From assembly GCF_900113315.1 (NCBI RefSeq), contig NZ_FOZG01000001.1, forward strand, positions 248,001-312,000: DNA of 64,000 nt, in the 5' to 3' direction. This document shows, one piece after another, positions 26,014-30,767 of this stretch. This DNA comes from Sphingomonas jatrophae (lineage in GTDB: Bacteria > Pseudomonadota > Alphaproteobacteria > Sphingomonadales > Sphingomonadaceae). The notes beneath the pieces are model-generated. The model did not search any database and was not told the origin of the DNA. It saw only the letters and a program-made list of their open reading frames with translations. The stretch's first letter is position 1, and every line of letters starts with the position of its first letter. The translations under genes were made by a program, and so were the position numbers.

Positions 26014-26142
26014 TTACTTCGCCGCGTCGGAGACCGCCTCACCCGCCGAGGAGACGTCCTTGCCGGCGCCCGCAACGGTGTTGCACGCCGAAACCATCAG
26101 CCCGCCGGTGACGAGGGCGAGGGCGAGAAACTTGCGAACCAT
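26014..26142 (-). CDS. Entericidin A/B-like small lipoprotein
   Basis: A 42-aa lipoprotein precursor: basic MVRK, hydrophobic FLALALVTGGLMV, lipobox VSAC with the lipidated cysteine at about residue 20. A short polar tail rich in alanine, glycine and serine (GAGKDVSSAGEAVSDAA) follows. This is the pattern of the entericidin EcnA/EcnB family, tiny lipoproteins often induced under stress and linked to envelope toxicity in E. coli. The function here is unproven. It lies just outside the general stress island, 119 bases past the end of the candidate sRNA. Confidence 0.82.
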   Translation of the reverse strand: MVRKFLALALVTGGLMVSACNTVAGAGKDVSSAGEAVSDAAK

Positions 26143-26260
26143 AGCTGCGCTCCTGATAAGTCCACGGTGTCCAATGACGGACCCGCGCTGCTCAATGTCC
26201 TGCAAGCAGAGTTGTTCCGCCAACGCATCGGCTTGATCGGACGGCGATGTGGGGTGCCCC

Positions 26261-26362
26261 AAAAAGAATTCGGGCCCGGAAACGCCGCCGGGGGGAGGAT
26301 CGGCGTTTCCGGGCCCGCTGGGTTGGATAGCGAGAGCGGGGGGGCAAAAGGTCACTATCCGA
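26261..26362 (-). ncRNA. Candidate stress-induced small RNA with C-rich loops
   Basis: Predicted transcript of about 102 nt. A sigma-EcfG-like promoter lies upstream (GGAAC 26394-26390, GTT 26372-26370). The 5' hairpin pairs 26352-26360 with 26325-26333 (9 bp, one G-U) and has an 18-nt loop containing seven consecutive C. A second, perfect 16-bp hairpin (26302-26317 with 26271-26286) has a 15-nt loop with CCTCCCCCC, and is followed by AATTCTTTTT, a textbook intrinsic terminator. C-rich loops can pair with Shine-Dalgarno sequences, as in alphaproteobacterial CCUCC-loop sRNAs and in GsrN of Caulobacter. No open frame fits. The exact ends are estimates. Confidence 0.65.
26271..26317 (-). terminator. 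Strong intrinsic terminator of the candidate sRNA
   Basis: Perfect 16-bp stem, 15-nt loop and T5 run on the minus strand. It lies about 400 bp beyond the phyP stop, so it is better explained as the end of an independent short transcript than as the operon terminator, although it could serve both. Confidence 0.8.
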
Positions 26363-26369
26363 ATGTAAG

Positions 26370-26394
26370 AACACGCAAGCGGGCGGGCGGTTCC
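26370..26394 (-). promoter_or_regulatory. Sigma-EcfG-like promoter of candidate sRNA
   Basis: GGAAC (26394-26390), 17-base spacer, GTT (26372-26370). Spacing is identical to the site upstream of nepR in the same island. The predicted start is near 26362. Confidence 0.6.
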
Positions 26395-26496: not shown

Positions 26497-26676
26497 ATGG
26501 CCAAGCCCCCCGAAAGCCCGTCACACAGCGATCTCACCGGCGTGAACCGTGACGGTCGCGTAAATGCGCCAAAGCGCGAGCCCGATCGCGATGATGCGGA
26601 GCGGCTGGCAACCGCCAACCAGGATAATCGCGCCAAGCCGCCAAGCGAAAGCGGCACCGGCGCCAGCGGAGACTGA
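26497..26676 (+). CDS. Small hydrophilic protein, unknown
   Basis: A 59-aa protein without hydrophobic segments, rich in Asp, Arg, Pro, Asn and Ser (MAKPPESPSHSDLTGVNRDG at the start, ending SGTGASGD). It is probably intrinsically disordered. A strong GAAAGGAG precedes ATG at 26497, which argues that it is a real gene. It lies between the candidate sRNA and phyP, on the opposite strand to both. I do not recognise the family. No sigma-EcfG-like site was found directly upstream. Confidence 0.55.
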   Translation: MAKPPESPSHSDLTGVNRDGRVNAPKREPDRDDAERLATANQDNRAKPPSESGTGASGD

Positions 26677-26708: not shown

Positions 26709-28277
26709 TCACACGTGCGCGCTGATCTCGACGGAGAAACGGCCCTCTATCGGATCGCGATTGAGCGGTGCGCGCAGCTGACGGCCCAGGCCGGTGATCA
26801 CCCGATCAAACCGCTCGGCGCTTGGATGTTGCCGGCAGGCCTCGTCGCGCAGCGCCTCCGCCTGCACCGAGAGGGTCGCGCGCCCGTCGCGTTCGGCGGG
26901 GCACAGCACCACGGCGATGCGGCCGGTCGGATCACAGGTCATCGCCAGCTCGACAATCTCGGTGATCAGGAAAGCGATCGGCACCGCCACGTCCTGTGTG
27001 GCATAGAGCGGCGCCAGATCCAACGTGATCGCCAGATGGCTGGCCGACGCCGGCGCGGTGGCGCGTAGATTGGCCGCCAGTTCGCCGATCAGCGCGCGCA
27101 ACCCGACGCCGCGGTTTTCCTCAAGCTCGGCATAGTGATTGCGGTGCACCACCGCGAGTGCATCCACCCGCCGCTGGATCGAAGCATAGGCGTCGGCGAC
27201 CGCCGGCTCGGACACGCCGCGGGCATGCAGGTTGATCAGGCTGGCGACGACCTGGAGATTGTTCTTGACCCGGTGATGCACCTCCCGCGTCAGCTTCGTC
27301 TGTCGGGCGAGGCCTTCCTCCAGTTCATGCTCGTGCGTGGCCAGCTGTTCGGTCACGCGCTGGAAGGCGGCGCCAAGGCCGCGTATCTCGGTCGCCGGCG
27401 TGGCGAGGACCGGCAGGACCAGCGGCCCATCGGTCGTACGATAATCGCCGATAGCGGCCTGCAATTGCAGCAGCGGCTGGATCAGCAGGCGATTGACCAC
27501 CGCCCAGCCGATGATCGCGGCAGCCAGCCACATCAGCAGCGGCAGCAAGGTCAGCAGCAGCTCGACTGCGCTGGTCTGCAGGTCCGTCAGGGTCAGTTCG
27601 AGCTGCACCTGCCCGCCAGCCACCGGCGACGACACGGTGATCGCCGGACCCACGCCACTATTGTCGCCGGCAAGCAGGATCGCATTGCCGCCCTCACGCA
27701 GCACCATGCGATGCTGGCCGACCAGCGCCACCGGTCGAGTGATATCCGTCAGCGCCGCCACCGCGATTTCCCCGACGCCGAACGGCGCGCCCTGCGCCAC
27801 CCGCGCCTCGAACCGCAGCCGCCGCTCGGCCGGCAGCAGCCTGACCTCAGTCGCGAAGATCTGTTCGGGCGCGAGCGCGGGTGCGGCGGAGAAGCCGGCC
27901 GTGCGGCAGAGCATTCGGCCGCGTGGGTCGAACAGCGCGAAATCCACCGGCAGGCGCTGCGATCGACGGAGCGCGTCCAGCCGCTGACGGCATTGTTCGG
28001 GATCGACCGTGGTTTGGCCAAGCTCGGTCGTCGCCGTCCGCAGCTCGAGCGACTCGCGGGCGACCGCGGAGGACAATTGCTGTGCGGCAGTGGCAGCGAG
28101 CGCGCGTGCATCCGCCTCGCGCCGGAGCCGGTTCGTTTGCGCCGATTCAAGCGAGGCGAATACAGCGATCAGCCCCAAAGGCAGCAACGCCGCCGTCAGG
28201 ATCAACAGCATCCGAATCCCGGTCGATAGACGCGGGCCGGTGTGCCGGTCGCGAGAAACAGTCTGGGTCGCGGGCAC
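26709..28277 (-). CDS. phyP: PhyP-like HisKA_2 sensor kinase/phosphatase of the general stress response
   Basis: A 522-aa membrane histidine-kinase-like protein. An N-terminal helix (about 21-42) and a second (about 240-262) flank a periplasmic sensor of about 195 residues. A HAMP-like linker leads to the HisKA_2 motif REVHHRVKNNLQVVASL (His334/335). The catalytic region is degraded: where an N-box Asn is expected the sequence reads EIVELAMTCDP, and no DxGxG is seen. PhyP of Sphingomonas, encoded next to nepR, acts mainly as a negative regulator (phosphatase) of PhyR, and this protein fits that role. GTG at 28277 lies eight bases after the nepR stop, so the two share an operon. Confidence 0.87.
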   Translation of the reverse strand: MPATQTVSRDRHTGPRLSTGIRMLLILTAALLPLGLIAVFASLESAQTNRLRREADARALAATAAQQLSSAVARESLELRTATTELGQTTVDPEQCRQRLDALRRSQRLPVDFALFDPRGRMLCRTAGFSAAPALAPEQIFATEVRLLPAERRLRFEARVAQGAPFGVGEIAVAALTDITRPVALVGQHRMVLREGGNAILLAGDNSGVGPAITVSSPVAGGQVQLELTLTDLQTSAVELLLTLLPLLMWLAAAIIGWAVVNRLLIQPLLQLQAAIGDYRTTDGPLVLPVLATPATEIRGLGAAFQRVTEQLATHEHELEEGLARQTKLTREVHHRVKNNLQVVASLINLHARGVSEPAVADAYASIQRRVDALAVVHRNHYAELEENRGVGLRALIGELAANLRATAPASASHLAITLDLAPLYATQDVAVPIAFLITEIVELAMTCDPTGRIAVVLCPAERDGRATLSVQAEALRDEACRQHPSAERFDRVITGLGRQLRAPLNRDPIEGRFSVEISAHV

Positions 28278-28285
28278 GATGCCCG

Positions 28286-28528
28286 TCAGCTGAGCTTGCC
28301 CAGCAGGTCAAGCATTTCCTGTGGGATATCCTCGTTGACCGCCTGGGTGTAGACGTTGCGCAGCGTCTGGCCCAGCCCACCCTCGCGGGGGCGCACAGGC
28401 GCTGCCTTGCGCTTTGCCGGCTTGGCCGCGCTCTTCTTCTCGTCGTCGCCCACCAACTCGATCGTCCCCTCGCTCACACCTCGAATCGCCGCACCGGGTG
28501 GGCGGACGTGAATAACGCCGGCGGTCAC
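28286..28528 (-). CDS. nepR: Anti-sigma factor NepR
   Basis: An 80-aa antagonist that binds EcfG until phosphorylated PhyR sequesters it. The conserved C-terminal two-helix core is GLGQTLRNVYTQAVNEDIP then QEMLDLLGKLS, preceded by a basic, disordered N-terminal half typical of NepR. The start is read as GTG at 28528, downstream of GGGGG. A sigma-EcfG-like promoter lies about 70 bases upstream. It is co-transcribed with phyP and divergent from phyR. Confidence 0.92.
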   Translation of the reverse strand: MTAGVIHVRPPGAAIRGVSEGTIELVGDDEKKSAAKPAKRKAAPVRPREGGLGQTLRNVYTQAVNEDIPQEMLDLLGKLS

Positions 28529-28596: not shown

Positions 28597-28624
28597 GGAA
28601 ACAAAATTGTCGAACGTTGGTTCC
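28597..28624. promoter_or_regulatory. Divergent, dyad-symmetric sigma-EcfG-like promoter of nepR and phyR
   Basis: Minus strand: GGAAC 28624-28620, 17-base spacer, GTT 28602-28600, aimed at nepR-phyP. Plus strand: GGAAA 28597-28601, 18-base spacer, GTT 28620-28622, aimed at phyR. The two sites overlap almost completely as an inverted repeat (GGAAAC ... GGTTCC), so one polymerase bound in either direction would exclude the other. The plus -35 differs from GGAAC at its last base. Confidence 0.65.
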
Positions 28625-28667
28625 GAGTTCGGGAGCGGGGCGATAAAACATGCCTCGCAGCTTCATC

Positions 28668-28708
28668 ATGCCGGCCGGTGCCGGGTGGGCCATGCCTGCC
28701 GGTGCCGG
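28668..28708 (+). repeat. Short direct repeat in phyR leader
   Basis: Two 17-base copies (28668-28684 and 28692-28708) that differ at one position, 24 bases apart, inside the long phyR 5' leader. Each could start in-frame with ATG, but the region lies upstream of the conserved PhyR start. Confidence 0.6.
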
Positions 28709-28775
28709 TCGGCATATGGACGATTTGCCGTGCGTCGTATCGGCGCGCAGGATTTTTCGAGGAGTAGTGCCCCAG

Positions 28776-29573
28776 ATGTCGCTCGGCCAGGAACTCGCCC
28801 CGCACCTTCCCTTCCTGCGCCGCTATGCGCGCGCGCTCACCGGGAGCCAGCAGCACGGCGACGCCTATGTGCGTGCGGCGCTGGAGGCGATCGTCGCTGC
28901 TCCCGGCGATTTCCCGCGCGATGTCGACGCGCGGCTCGGCCTGTATCGCACCTTCCAGCGCATCTGGAGCTCGACCAACGACGACGAGCAGAGCGATGCC
29001 GATCCCGTGAGCGACGGCACCGAGGCGATCGCGCAGGCGCGTCTGGCGCGGATCACGCCGCGTTCGCGCCAGGCCTTGCTGCTGACCGCGATGGAAGGCT
29101 TCACGCCCGAGGACGCGGCCTATCTGATCGAGGGCACGCCCGACGAGGTCGAGGCGCTCGTCGCCGATGCGCTGGCCGAGATCGAGCGGCAGACGCGCGC
29201 GGACGTGCTGATCATCGAGGATGAGCCGATCATCGCGATGGATCTGGAAACCATCGTGCGCGATCTCGGCCACTCGGTGAACGGCGTCGCCGTCACGCGG
29301 GACGAGGCGGTGTCGCAGGCGCTGGCACAGCGGCCGACGCTTGTCCTCGCCGACATCCAGCTGGCCGACGACAGCTCGGGTATCGATGCGGTGAAGGACA
29401 TCTTGGCCGAGTTCTCCGTGCCGGTCATCTTCATCACCGCCTTCCCCGAGCGGCTGCTGACCGGCGAGCGGCCGGAGCCGACATTCCTGATTACCAAGCC
29501 GTTCCAGCGCTCCACCGTGAAGGCGGCGATCAGTCAGGCGCTCTTCTTCGACAGCACGACCGTTCCCGCCTGA
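28776..29573 (+). CDS. phyR: General stress response regulator PhyR
   Basis: Anti-anti-sigma response regulator of 265 aa. The N-terminal sigma-like domain (residues 1-140; sigma2-like LPFLRRYARALTGS, sigma4-like PRSRQALLLTAMEGFTPEDAAYLI) mimics EcfG to bind NepR. The C-terminal receiver has the acidic pair Asp149/Glu150, phospho-acceptor Asp193 in LADIQLADD and Lys241 in ITKPF. Start ATG at 28776 (MSLGQELAPHL) is the conserved one, with AGGAG upstream; the frame is open for 42 codons further. The leader is about 145 bases from the predicted promoter. Confidence 0.96.
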   Translation: MSLGQELAPHLPFLRRYARALTGSQQHGDAYVRAALEAIVAAPGDFPRDVDARLGLYRTFQRIWSSTNDDEQSDADPVSDGTEAIAQARLARITPRSRQALLLTAMEGFTPEDAAYLIEGTPDEVEALVADALAEIERQTRADVLIIEDEPIIAMDLETIVRDLGHSVNGVAVTRDEAVSQALAQRPTLVLADIQLADDSSGIDAVKDILAEFSVPVIFITAFPERLLTGERPEPTFLITKPFQRSTVKAAISQALFFDSTTVPA

Positions 29574-29662: not shown

Positions 29663-29800
29663 GTGGCACAGGAAGAAGTTCATCTGAACCAGGATCGGGC
29701 GCGCGCCGGGGCGACGCCCAAGATGACGCGCTACATTCTCGGCATCTCGCTGCCGCTGATCGTTATCGCCTTCCTCATCATCCTGTTCGTCTACCGGTGA
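29663..29800 (+). CDS. Small single-helix membrane protein coupled to ecfG
   Basis: A 45-aa protein from GTG at 29663 (AAGGGG six bases upstream), or 50 aa from ATG at 29648. The hydrophilic N-terminal half (MAQEEVHLNQDRARAGATPK) is followed by one membrane helix (ILGISLPLIVIAFLIILFVY) and a final Arg. The stop overlaps the proposed GTG of ecfG by four bases (GTGA), implying translational coupling. It sits directly behind a sigma-EcfG-like promoter. I do not recognise a named family. It could anchor or modulate EcfG, or simply be a stress membrane peptide. Confidence 0.7.
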   Translation: MAQEEVHLNQDRARAGATPKMTRYILGISLPLIVIAFLIILFVYR

Positions 29801-30528
29801 ACGAAGTGTCCGGGGCGGTCCTCGCAATCGCTCCGAGACCGTCCTATGTAGGGGAGGCGGGCAGGGTACCGCCGCTTGGGAGCAGTCCAATTTCCGACAC
29901 AGACGACCAGGATGGCGAGATCGTCGCGCCTGCGGCCGAACCCGTTCCGCTGCCCGATGCCGAGTTCAAGGACGAGCTGGCACGGGTGATCCCGCACCTG
30001 CGCGCCTTCGGCCGCTCGTTGTCAGGCAATCGCGATCTGGCCGACGATCTGGTGCAGGAAACCCTGCTCAAGGCGTGGGCCGCGCGCCGCCGCTTCCAGG
30101 CGGGCACCAACATGCGCGCTTGGACCTTCATCATCCTGCGCAACCTGTTCCTCAGCCAGATGCGCCGCGCGCGCTTCAAGGGTGAATGGGACGAGATCAC
30201 CGCATCCAAGCTGCTCGCCGCGCCGGCCAGCCAGGATCGCCATGTCGAACTGGGCGACATGCAGCGTGCACTCATGCACCTGCCGGCGCCGCAGCGTGAG
30301 GCGCTTATCCTCGTCGGCGCTGGCGGCTTCGCCTATGAGGAAGCGGCCGAAATCTGTGGCTGCGCCGTCGGCACGATCAAGAGCCGCGTCGCGCGTGGCC
30401 GGGTCGCGCTGGAGGCGCTGTTGTCGGAGGGCAAGCTGCCGCCGCGCCGAGATCATGAGGCGGAGCCCGGCAAGACGGCGCTCCAATCCATTATGGGTGA
30501 AGTTGACGAGCTCAGCCGCTCGCGTTGA
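29797..30528 (+). CDS. ecfG: General stress ECF sigma factor EcfG (ECF15)
   Basis: Extracytoplasmic-function sigma factor that drives the general stress regulon. The sigma2 region ELARVIPHLRAFGRSLSGNRDLADDLVQETLLKAW and sigma4 region LPAPQREALILVGAGGFAYEEAAEICGCAVGTIKSRVARGR are both clear. Read from GTG at 29797 the protein has 243 aa, with about 55 extra N-terminal residues that are acidic and proline-rich. A later start such as TTG near 29876 cannot be excluded. Translational coupling to the small membrane gene supports GTG. Activity is held by NepR and released by phospho-PhyR. A strong shared terminator follows. Confidence 0.94.
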   Translation: MNEVSGAVLAIAPRPSYVGEAGRVPPLGSSPISDTDDQDGEIVAPAAEPVPLPDAEFKDELARVIPHLRAFGRSLSGNRDLADDLVQETLLKAWAARRRFQAGTNMRAWTFIILRNLFLSQMRRARFKGEWDEITASKLLAAPASQDRHVELGDMQRALMHLPAPQREALILVGAGGFAYEEAAEICGCAVGTIKSRVARGRVALEALLSEGKLPPRRDHEAEPGKTALQSIMGEVDELSRSR

Positions 30529-30585: not shown

Positions 30586-30717
30586 TCAGCGAAGCCGGGT
30601 GAGCATGTCCACGATATCAGCCGGCAGATCGTGCCCGCGCGGCAGATAGGCGGTGCGCAACGCATCACCGACGCCTTGGTGCGGGGCAGGTGCCGGAACG
30701 CGCATCGTCGCTTTCAC
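30586..30717 (-). CDS. nepR2: Second, very short NepR-like anti-sigma factor
   Basis: A 43-aa protein consisting almost only of the NepR core: GVGDALRTAYLPRGHDLP, then ADIVDMLTRLR. It aligns with GLGQTLRNVYTQAVNEDIP plus EMLDLLGKL of NepR, one residue shorter between the helices. GTG at 30717 is chosen because AAGGAGG lies seven bases upstream. An ATG pair at 30756-30759 would add 13-14 residues but has no ribosome site. A sigma-EcfG-like promoter (30793-30768) lies about 50 bases upstream. It probably adds feedback on EcfG or on a paralogous sigma factor. Other alphaproteobacteria also carry NepR paralogues. Confidence 0.78.
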   Translation of the reverse strand: MKATMRVPAPAPHQGVGDALRTAYLPRGHDLPADIVDMLTRLR

Positions 30718-30767
30718 GTTTCCGCCTCCTTCGCCACCTTGTTGGTTGATCCACATCATAAACGTCC

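Follow-up and report, generated by a model that had tools for sequence, protein, structure and literature searches.

GsrN, a small RNA (sRNA) controlled by sigma-T (EcfG) in Caulobacteraceae, has BLASTn matches limited to that family, and a gsrN-like gene was not apparent in Erythrobacter litoralis in a survey of 2018 (PMC5869019). ChvR represses the TonB receptor ChvT, which provides an alphaproteobacterial precedent for this type of control, and has not been found beyond C. crescentus (PMC6237742). ChvR and the sigma-E-dependent sRNAs MicA and RybB of enterobacteria follow the same scheme, in which a stress or envelope regulator acts through an sRNA to repress outer-membrane proteins. Two Rfam families are also relevant: CcsR1 of Rhodobacter (RF02791), a stress RNA with the conserved CCUCCUCCC motif, and the alphaproteobacterial sRNA ar14 (RF02344). 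Sphingomonads are a main model of the alphaproteobacterial general stress response (GSR), and no RNA component of it was found in the literature searched. No description of the present sRNA was found either, subscription papers and supplements being outside the reach of the search. The main texts of the GSR-regulon papers on S. granuli TFA (PMC7083833) and S. melonis Fr1 report no GSR sRNA; SuhB, which is only cited in the former, is a different sRNA (PMC7083833).

The window analysed here is a 64-kb stretch of the Sphingomonas jatrophae genome. The original prediction placed an EcfG-dependent sRNA on its minus strand beside a GSR locus, and the kinase, NepR, PhyR and EcfG of this locus are confirmed by Pfam (table 1). 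The minus-strand sequence from 26394 to 26262 is GGAACCGCCCGCCCGCTTGCGTGTTCTTACATTCGGATAGTGACCTTTTGCCCCCCCGCTCTCGCTATCCAACCCAGCGGGCCCGGAAACGCCGATCCTCCCCCCGGCGGCGTTTCCGGGCCCGAATTCTTTTT.

Table 1. Features of the sRNA gene and of the adjacent GSR locus of S. jatrophae (positions in the window).
Feature	Position	Strand	Remarks
-35 element GGAAC, EcfG-type promoter of sRNA	26390..26394	-	
-10 element TGTT	26370..26373	-	N16 from -35; CGTT in most homologues
sRNA body	26262..26364	-	about 100 nt, non-coding; fold z -7.7; covariance model match 26262-26363
5' hairpin (hairpin 1)	26325..26360	-	9 bp GGATAGTGA/TCGCTATCC, one U-G; loop CCTTTTGCCCCCCCGCTC with C7
Terminator hairpin (hairpin 2)	26271..26317	-	17-bp perfect stem; C-rich loop ATCCTCCCCCCGG
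T5 run closing the sRNA unit	26262..26266	-	
EcfG-like site GGAAC-N16-CATT	26194-26218	-	about 50 nt before entericidin gene
Entericidin-type lipoprotein gene, 3' of sRNA	26014..26142	-	PF08085; separate unit
HWE/HisKA_2 histidine kinase (PhyP-like), 5' of sRNA, same strand	26709..28277	-	PF07568/PF07536
nepR, anti-sigma factor	28286..28528	-	PF18557; EcfG-like site 28624 (-)
phyR, anti-anti-sigma response regulator	28650..29573	+	PF22029, PF22233, PF00072
ecfG, general stress sigma factor	29797..30528	+	PF04542, PF08281

The predicted RNA resembles GsrN in its EcfG-type promoter, its length of about 100 nt, its 5' hairpin, whose loop is C-rich (GsrN has six tandem C's there), and its terminator hairpin; both genes usually lie near an ecfG–nepR–phyR locus, and pairing with G-rich mRNA sites is predicted for both RNAs. 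The C-rich terminator loop and the location by tatBC, entericidin and HWE kinase genes are, in contrast, features of the sphingomonad RNA, for which pairing with katG is unsupported. The likeness to the logic of GsrN, which had been invoked for this locus, holds as an analogy only, with neither recognizable homology nor special complementarity to katG; the evidence on homology is indirect, coming from a family-model search of 289 genomes of the class, and the GsrN sequence itself was not compared. A C/U-rich anti-Shine–Dalgarno (SD) loop is shared with CcsR1, to which hairpin 2 aligns at 17.5 bits (gathering threshold 65.3), the match being that of a single hairpin. The promoter class and context of CcsR1 differ from those of the sphingomonad RNA. 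The CU-rich loop of ar14 is also shared (12.7 bits, gathering threshold 58.8; E 2.8). No Rfam sRNA family matches the element at its gathering threshold, and none could be assigned by E-value. MicA, RybB and ChvR, which have another sigma factor or regulator and another sequence, are functional analogues only, and the analogy is unproved here.

The promoter-like motif GGAAC-N17-GTT is present on the minus strand as described, at 26394-26370 (GGAAC 26394-26390, N17, GTT 26372-26370), and is the same as GGAAC-N16-TGTT; the expected transcription start is at about 26362-26366. This form is known to be EcfG-dependent in Sphingopyxis granuli, and in the GSR of strain TFA most -10 boxes follow the consensus CGTT, while TGTT, CATT and GGTT are also common (PMC7083833). 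The motif GGAAC-N16-YGTT is rare, with only 19 sites in 3.3 million strand-bases of the S. jatrophae genome. It is highly likely that the sRNA is expressed under EcfG, an inference made without transcript data.

The sRNA strand (105 nt) has a predicted folding energy of -52.1 kcal/mol, compared with -30.1 +/- 2.9 kcal/mol for dinucleotide shuffles (z = -7.7). The 5' hairpin is as originally described, with nine base pairs and a C7-containing loop (18 nt, CCUUUUGCCCCCCCGCUC). The terminator hairpin followed by T5 is also present, with slightly different dimensions: a stem of 16 bp with the loop CCTCCCCCC had been given, whereas the stem has 17 bp and the loop is AUCCUCCCCCCGG (13 nt; also given as CCUCCCCCC). 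This stem is the longest perfect inverted repeat of the window. The terminator is absent from the list produced by a strict terminator scan because the T5 run begins 5 nt past the stem; in the homologues, the T-runs are often nearer to the stem.

Lack of conservation had been set beforehand as one of the results that would refute the prediction, and the hairpins, both C-rich loops, the promoter, its spacing and the position are all kept across Sphingomonadaceae. In a blastn comparison with 60 relatives, 11 genomes proved to contain the element, S. jatrophae itself included, with an EcfG-type promoter at equal distance in most of the homologues. The covariance search proposed with the prediction yielded matches throughout the family. 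Among 101 distinct homologues, 97.8% of cells are standard pairs and all 22 modelled pairs, including the nine of hairpin 1, have changed on both sides. Double changes number 285, compared with 53 +/- 6 for shuffled alignments, none of which (0/500) is equally good; when the structure is slid along the alignment, the paired fraction drops to 27–47%. This alignment was fitted to the covariance model and is therefore less independent than the first MAFFT alignment of ten sequences, in which double changes occur in 13 of 22 pairs. Given the family-wide conservation and the covariation of all 22 pairs, the fold is not due to chance.

The promoter GGAAC-N16/17-NGTT is found in 98 of the 100 best homologues, with a spacer of 16 (87) or 17 (11), and in 96 of these 100 the -10 element ends 5–7 nt upstream of the model start. 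The spacer sequence differs among homologues while the promoter distance stays locked. Majority identity reaches 89% in loop 1 and 87% in stem 1, compared with 54% in the linker. A run of at least six C's is present in loop 1 of 84 and in loop 2 of 78 of 87 homologues, and loop 1 is conserved beyond its C content, in the flanks CCUUUU and GCUCUC. A protein-coding reading, which the original prediction had discounted, was rejected: loop 1 has anywhere between 4 and 11 C's in its run, the match length ranges from 89 to 109 nt, a conserved start is missing, and an SD sequence plus start lies within the unit in only 16 of 100 homologues. The element thus meets the criteria of an independently terminated trans-acting sRNA, namely a conserved structure with compensatory changes, no coding capacity, and its own promoter and terminator. 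Judged by sequence comparison, it is a previously undescribed (no match in Rfam), strongly conserved sRNA family, and we have hardly any doubt that a conserved EcfG-linked sRNA gene exists.

A covariance model built from ten sequences identifies the sRNA in 131 of 299 Sphingomonadaceae genomes, representing 48 of 96 genera, almost always in a single copy. With the strict filters used, this number is a lower bound, although false matches are probably present among the weakest. In most genera there is a single orthologous locus adjoining the GSR genes. The hosts among the exact-motif matches listed are Sphingomonas, Sphingomicrobium, Sphingosinicella, Stakelama, Hephaestia, Sphingorhabdus and Parasphingopyxis. 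A second model (87 sequences) matches 95 of the 298 genomes searched from the order, and every one of these 95 belongs to Sphingomonadaceae. The sRNA may supply the RNA arm that the sphingomonad stress response has so far seemed to lack; a family-wide EcfG-linked sRNA would fill this gap and, as one locus in one copy, offers a ready genetic handle.

The search of 289 genomes of the class gave just two matches outside Sphingomonadaceae (L246 and L247), both weak. Their membership was rejected, since the stretches read contain neither a GGAAC promoter nor a match to a GSR-locus protein. One of them (L246, 1501-1597) has two hairpins with C-rich loops in a similar layout and is perhaps an unrelated sRNA with C-rich loops. 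Weak matches within the family that lack the promoter (L110, L113, L115-L119) are probably false or unrelated hairpins.

Some more distant genera carry a similar, strongly diverged unit near tatC (L254, L272, L275), and divergent copies with EcfG-type promoters are found away from the GSR locus (L104, L105, L096, L099, L107). The divergent second copy L104 has its own EcfG-type promoter and a different stem, but retains the loop CCTTTTGCCCCCCCGCTC, a sign that the active part is the loop. Some genera may have a second EcfG sRNA.

Target tests were conducted on 1145 genes in 1.66 Mb of the S. jatrophae genome, with a simple gene caller and scripted start codons. Strong pairing with loop 2 (< -18 kcal/mol) is predicted for 74 of the 1145 ribosome-binding site (RBS) regions; the internal and upstream control regions give 36 and 27 such cases, respectively (p = 0.0003, RBS versus internal). 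Pairing of loop 1 with the RBS regions of these genes is no better than that of permuted loops of equal composition. When perfect matches to loop 1 are ranked, surface-protein genes come up, including a lipoprotein gene with an 11-nt match (GGGGCAAAAGG) and several TonB receptors. This ranking led to a direct test of TonB-receptor RBSs.

GGGG is present between -22 and -3 in 22 of 30 TonB-receptor genes of S. jatrophae (L382-L411). Among all genes the share is 15% (p = 3e-12); it is 22% for secreted-like genes and 13% for the others. The enrichment is position-specific, since control windows of the receptor genes contain GGGG in only 1–2 of 30 cases. The corresponding numbers are 14/30 (47%) in other sRNA-bearing genera, 9/29 (31%) in family members without a model match (p = 0.013 versus all sRNA-bearing) and 6/54 outside Sphingomonadaceae, or 0/14 where the locus exceeds 60% GC. 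Many of these receptor sites have the sequence GGGGAG, which is complementary to CUCCCC of loop 2, and the C-run of loop 1 is matched by all of them. The receptor loci were chosen by their top scores as Plug matches and are not a random sample; no correction was made for phylogeny, and the genomes are not independent. The association is correlative and was found post hoc, after other target ideas had failed. The C-rich loops probably pair with the G-rich start regions of TonB-receptor mRNAs, although pairing in the cell is inferred. For the proposal that the loops are anti-SD elements, these data (modest enrichment at RBSs in general, strong G-run enrichment at those of TonB receptors) are compatible but do not constitute proof.

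We consider it somewhat more probable than all the alternatives taken together that the element is a trans-acting sRNA of the EcfG regulon of Sphingomonadaceae, acting by an anti-SD mechanism with TonB receptors as the main class of targets. Under stress, EcfG would be freed through PhyR and NepR and would use GGAAC-N16-TGTT to transcribe the RNA, about 100 nt long, as far as the terminator hairpin. The two exposed C-rich loops (CCUUUUGCCCCCCCGCUC and AUCCUCCCCCCGG) would pair with G-rich RBSs and block translation of the mRNAs concerned, most likely those of TonB-dependent receptors, so that fewer outer-membrane importers would be made, in parallel with the action of MicA and RybB on porins. 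Stress is thus predicted to down-regulate TonB-receptor synthesis through G-run ribosome sites. Repression rather than activation is inferred, as would be the participation of any chaperone, and taken by itself the step of anti-SD repression with receptors as the main class falls slightly short of an even chance. The G-runs at these RBSs may have to do with high translation or with another RNA, and GGGG persists in the sRNA-negative family members at the level given above. More speculatively, and with the balance against it, an ancestral EcfG sRNA could have co-evolved with dozens of TonB-receptor mRNAs, the G-runs at their RBSs being complementary to its C-rich loops, so that one RNA shuts the whole outer-membrane uptake repertoire under stress.

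The same EcfG-dependent sRNA might instead activate a small number of stress mRNAs, perhaps just one (katG-like, in the manner of GsrN), or act broadly without a preference for TonB receptors. The C-rich 5' loop, the sigma-EcfG promoter and the closeness to the GSR locus are indeed as in GsrN (PMC5869019), and some of the top-matching RBSs are not those of receptors, such as that of the lipoprotein gene matching loop 1 over 11 nt. This alternative is unlikely, though it deserves consideration: the katG start region pairs at -12.2 kcal/mol, which hardly differs from the mean of -13.9 kcal/mol, and katG is not supported as a target, with the reservation that only the start region was examined, without mapped 5' ends. 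Autoregulation of the GSR locus or its neighbours through loop 1 is likewise unsupported, the mean pairing of their start regions (up to 97 loci per gene) being no better than that of their own shuffles for nearly all genes.

Most of the 115 loci examined retain the order tatB–tatC, entericidin, sRNA, HWE kinase; the sRNA shares its strand with the genes for the kinase and entericidin, and tatBC lies on the opposite one. The entericidin gene lies about 120 nt downstream on the same strand in S. jatrophae and remains there in most loci, as would be expected if the element were a 5' leader or attenuator of this gene and not a free sRNA. We regard this as very improbable. The unit is closed by a terminator, behind which entericidin is preceded by an EcfG-like site of its own (of the GGAAC-N16-CATT type) in at least 55 of the 79 homologous loci, so that the sRNA is a separate unit; several loci retain the RNA without an entericidin match (for example L016, L025 and L041), and the conservation of the loop sequence exceeds what a terminator needs. 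Entericidin itself, to judge from its promoter-like site, is probably also a GSR gene.

An equally improbable reading is that of a sponge, in which the C-rich loops would bind an RNA-binding protein or other sRNAs and not mRNA start regions. Two exposed C-runs in so short an RNA, conserved mostly as C-runs, would suit this function, but the CCUUUU and GCUCUC flanks of loop 1 are conserved as well and no partner is indicated here. Finally, the element might be no more than a strong terminator, or a DNA element that has no function as an RNA, as suggested by the perfect terminator-like stem of hairpin 2. This is practically ruled out, because the 5' hairpin with its nine covarying pairs, the loop sequence and the promoter would then not be conserved.

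There are six EcfG-like sites in the window. Apart from the sites in front of the sRNA and entericidin, GGAAC-N16/17-NGTT occurs (first coordinate) at 28624 (-) before nepR, 29603 (+) just past phyR, 30695 (+) near the 3' side of ecfG, and 35014 (-) outside the island. Between the sRNA and the kinase, an open reading frame (ORF) at 26497-26676 (+) codes for a hydrophilic protein of 59 aa without a Pfam match; it has weak relatives in a few loci, and a similar ORF lies behind an EcfG-like site in L275. Another ORF, of 58 aa at 30586-30762 (-), has no Pfam match at 0.01; its C-terminal part, DLPADIVDMLTRL, is NepR-like, and it possibly represents a second NepR-like protein.
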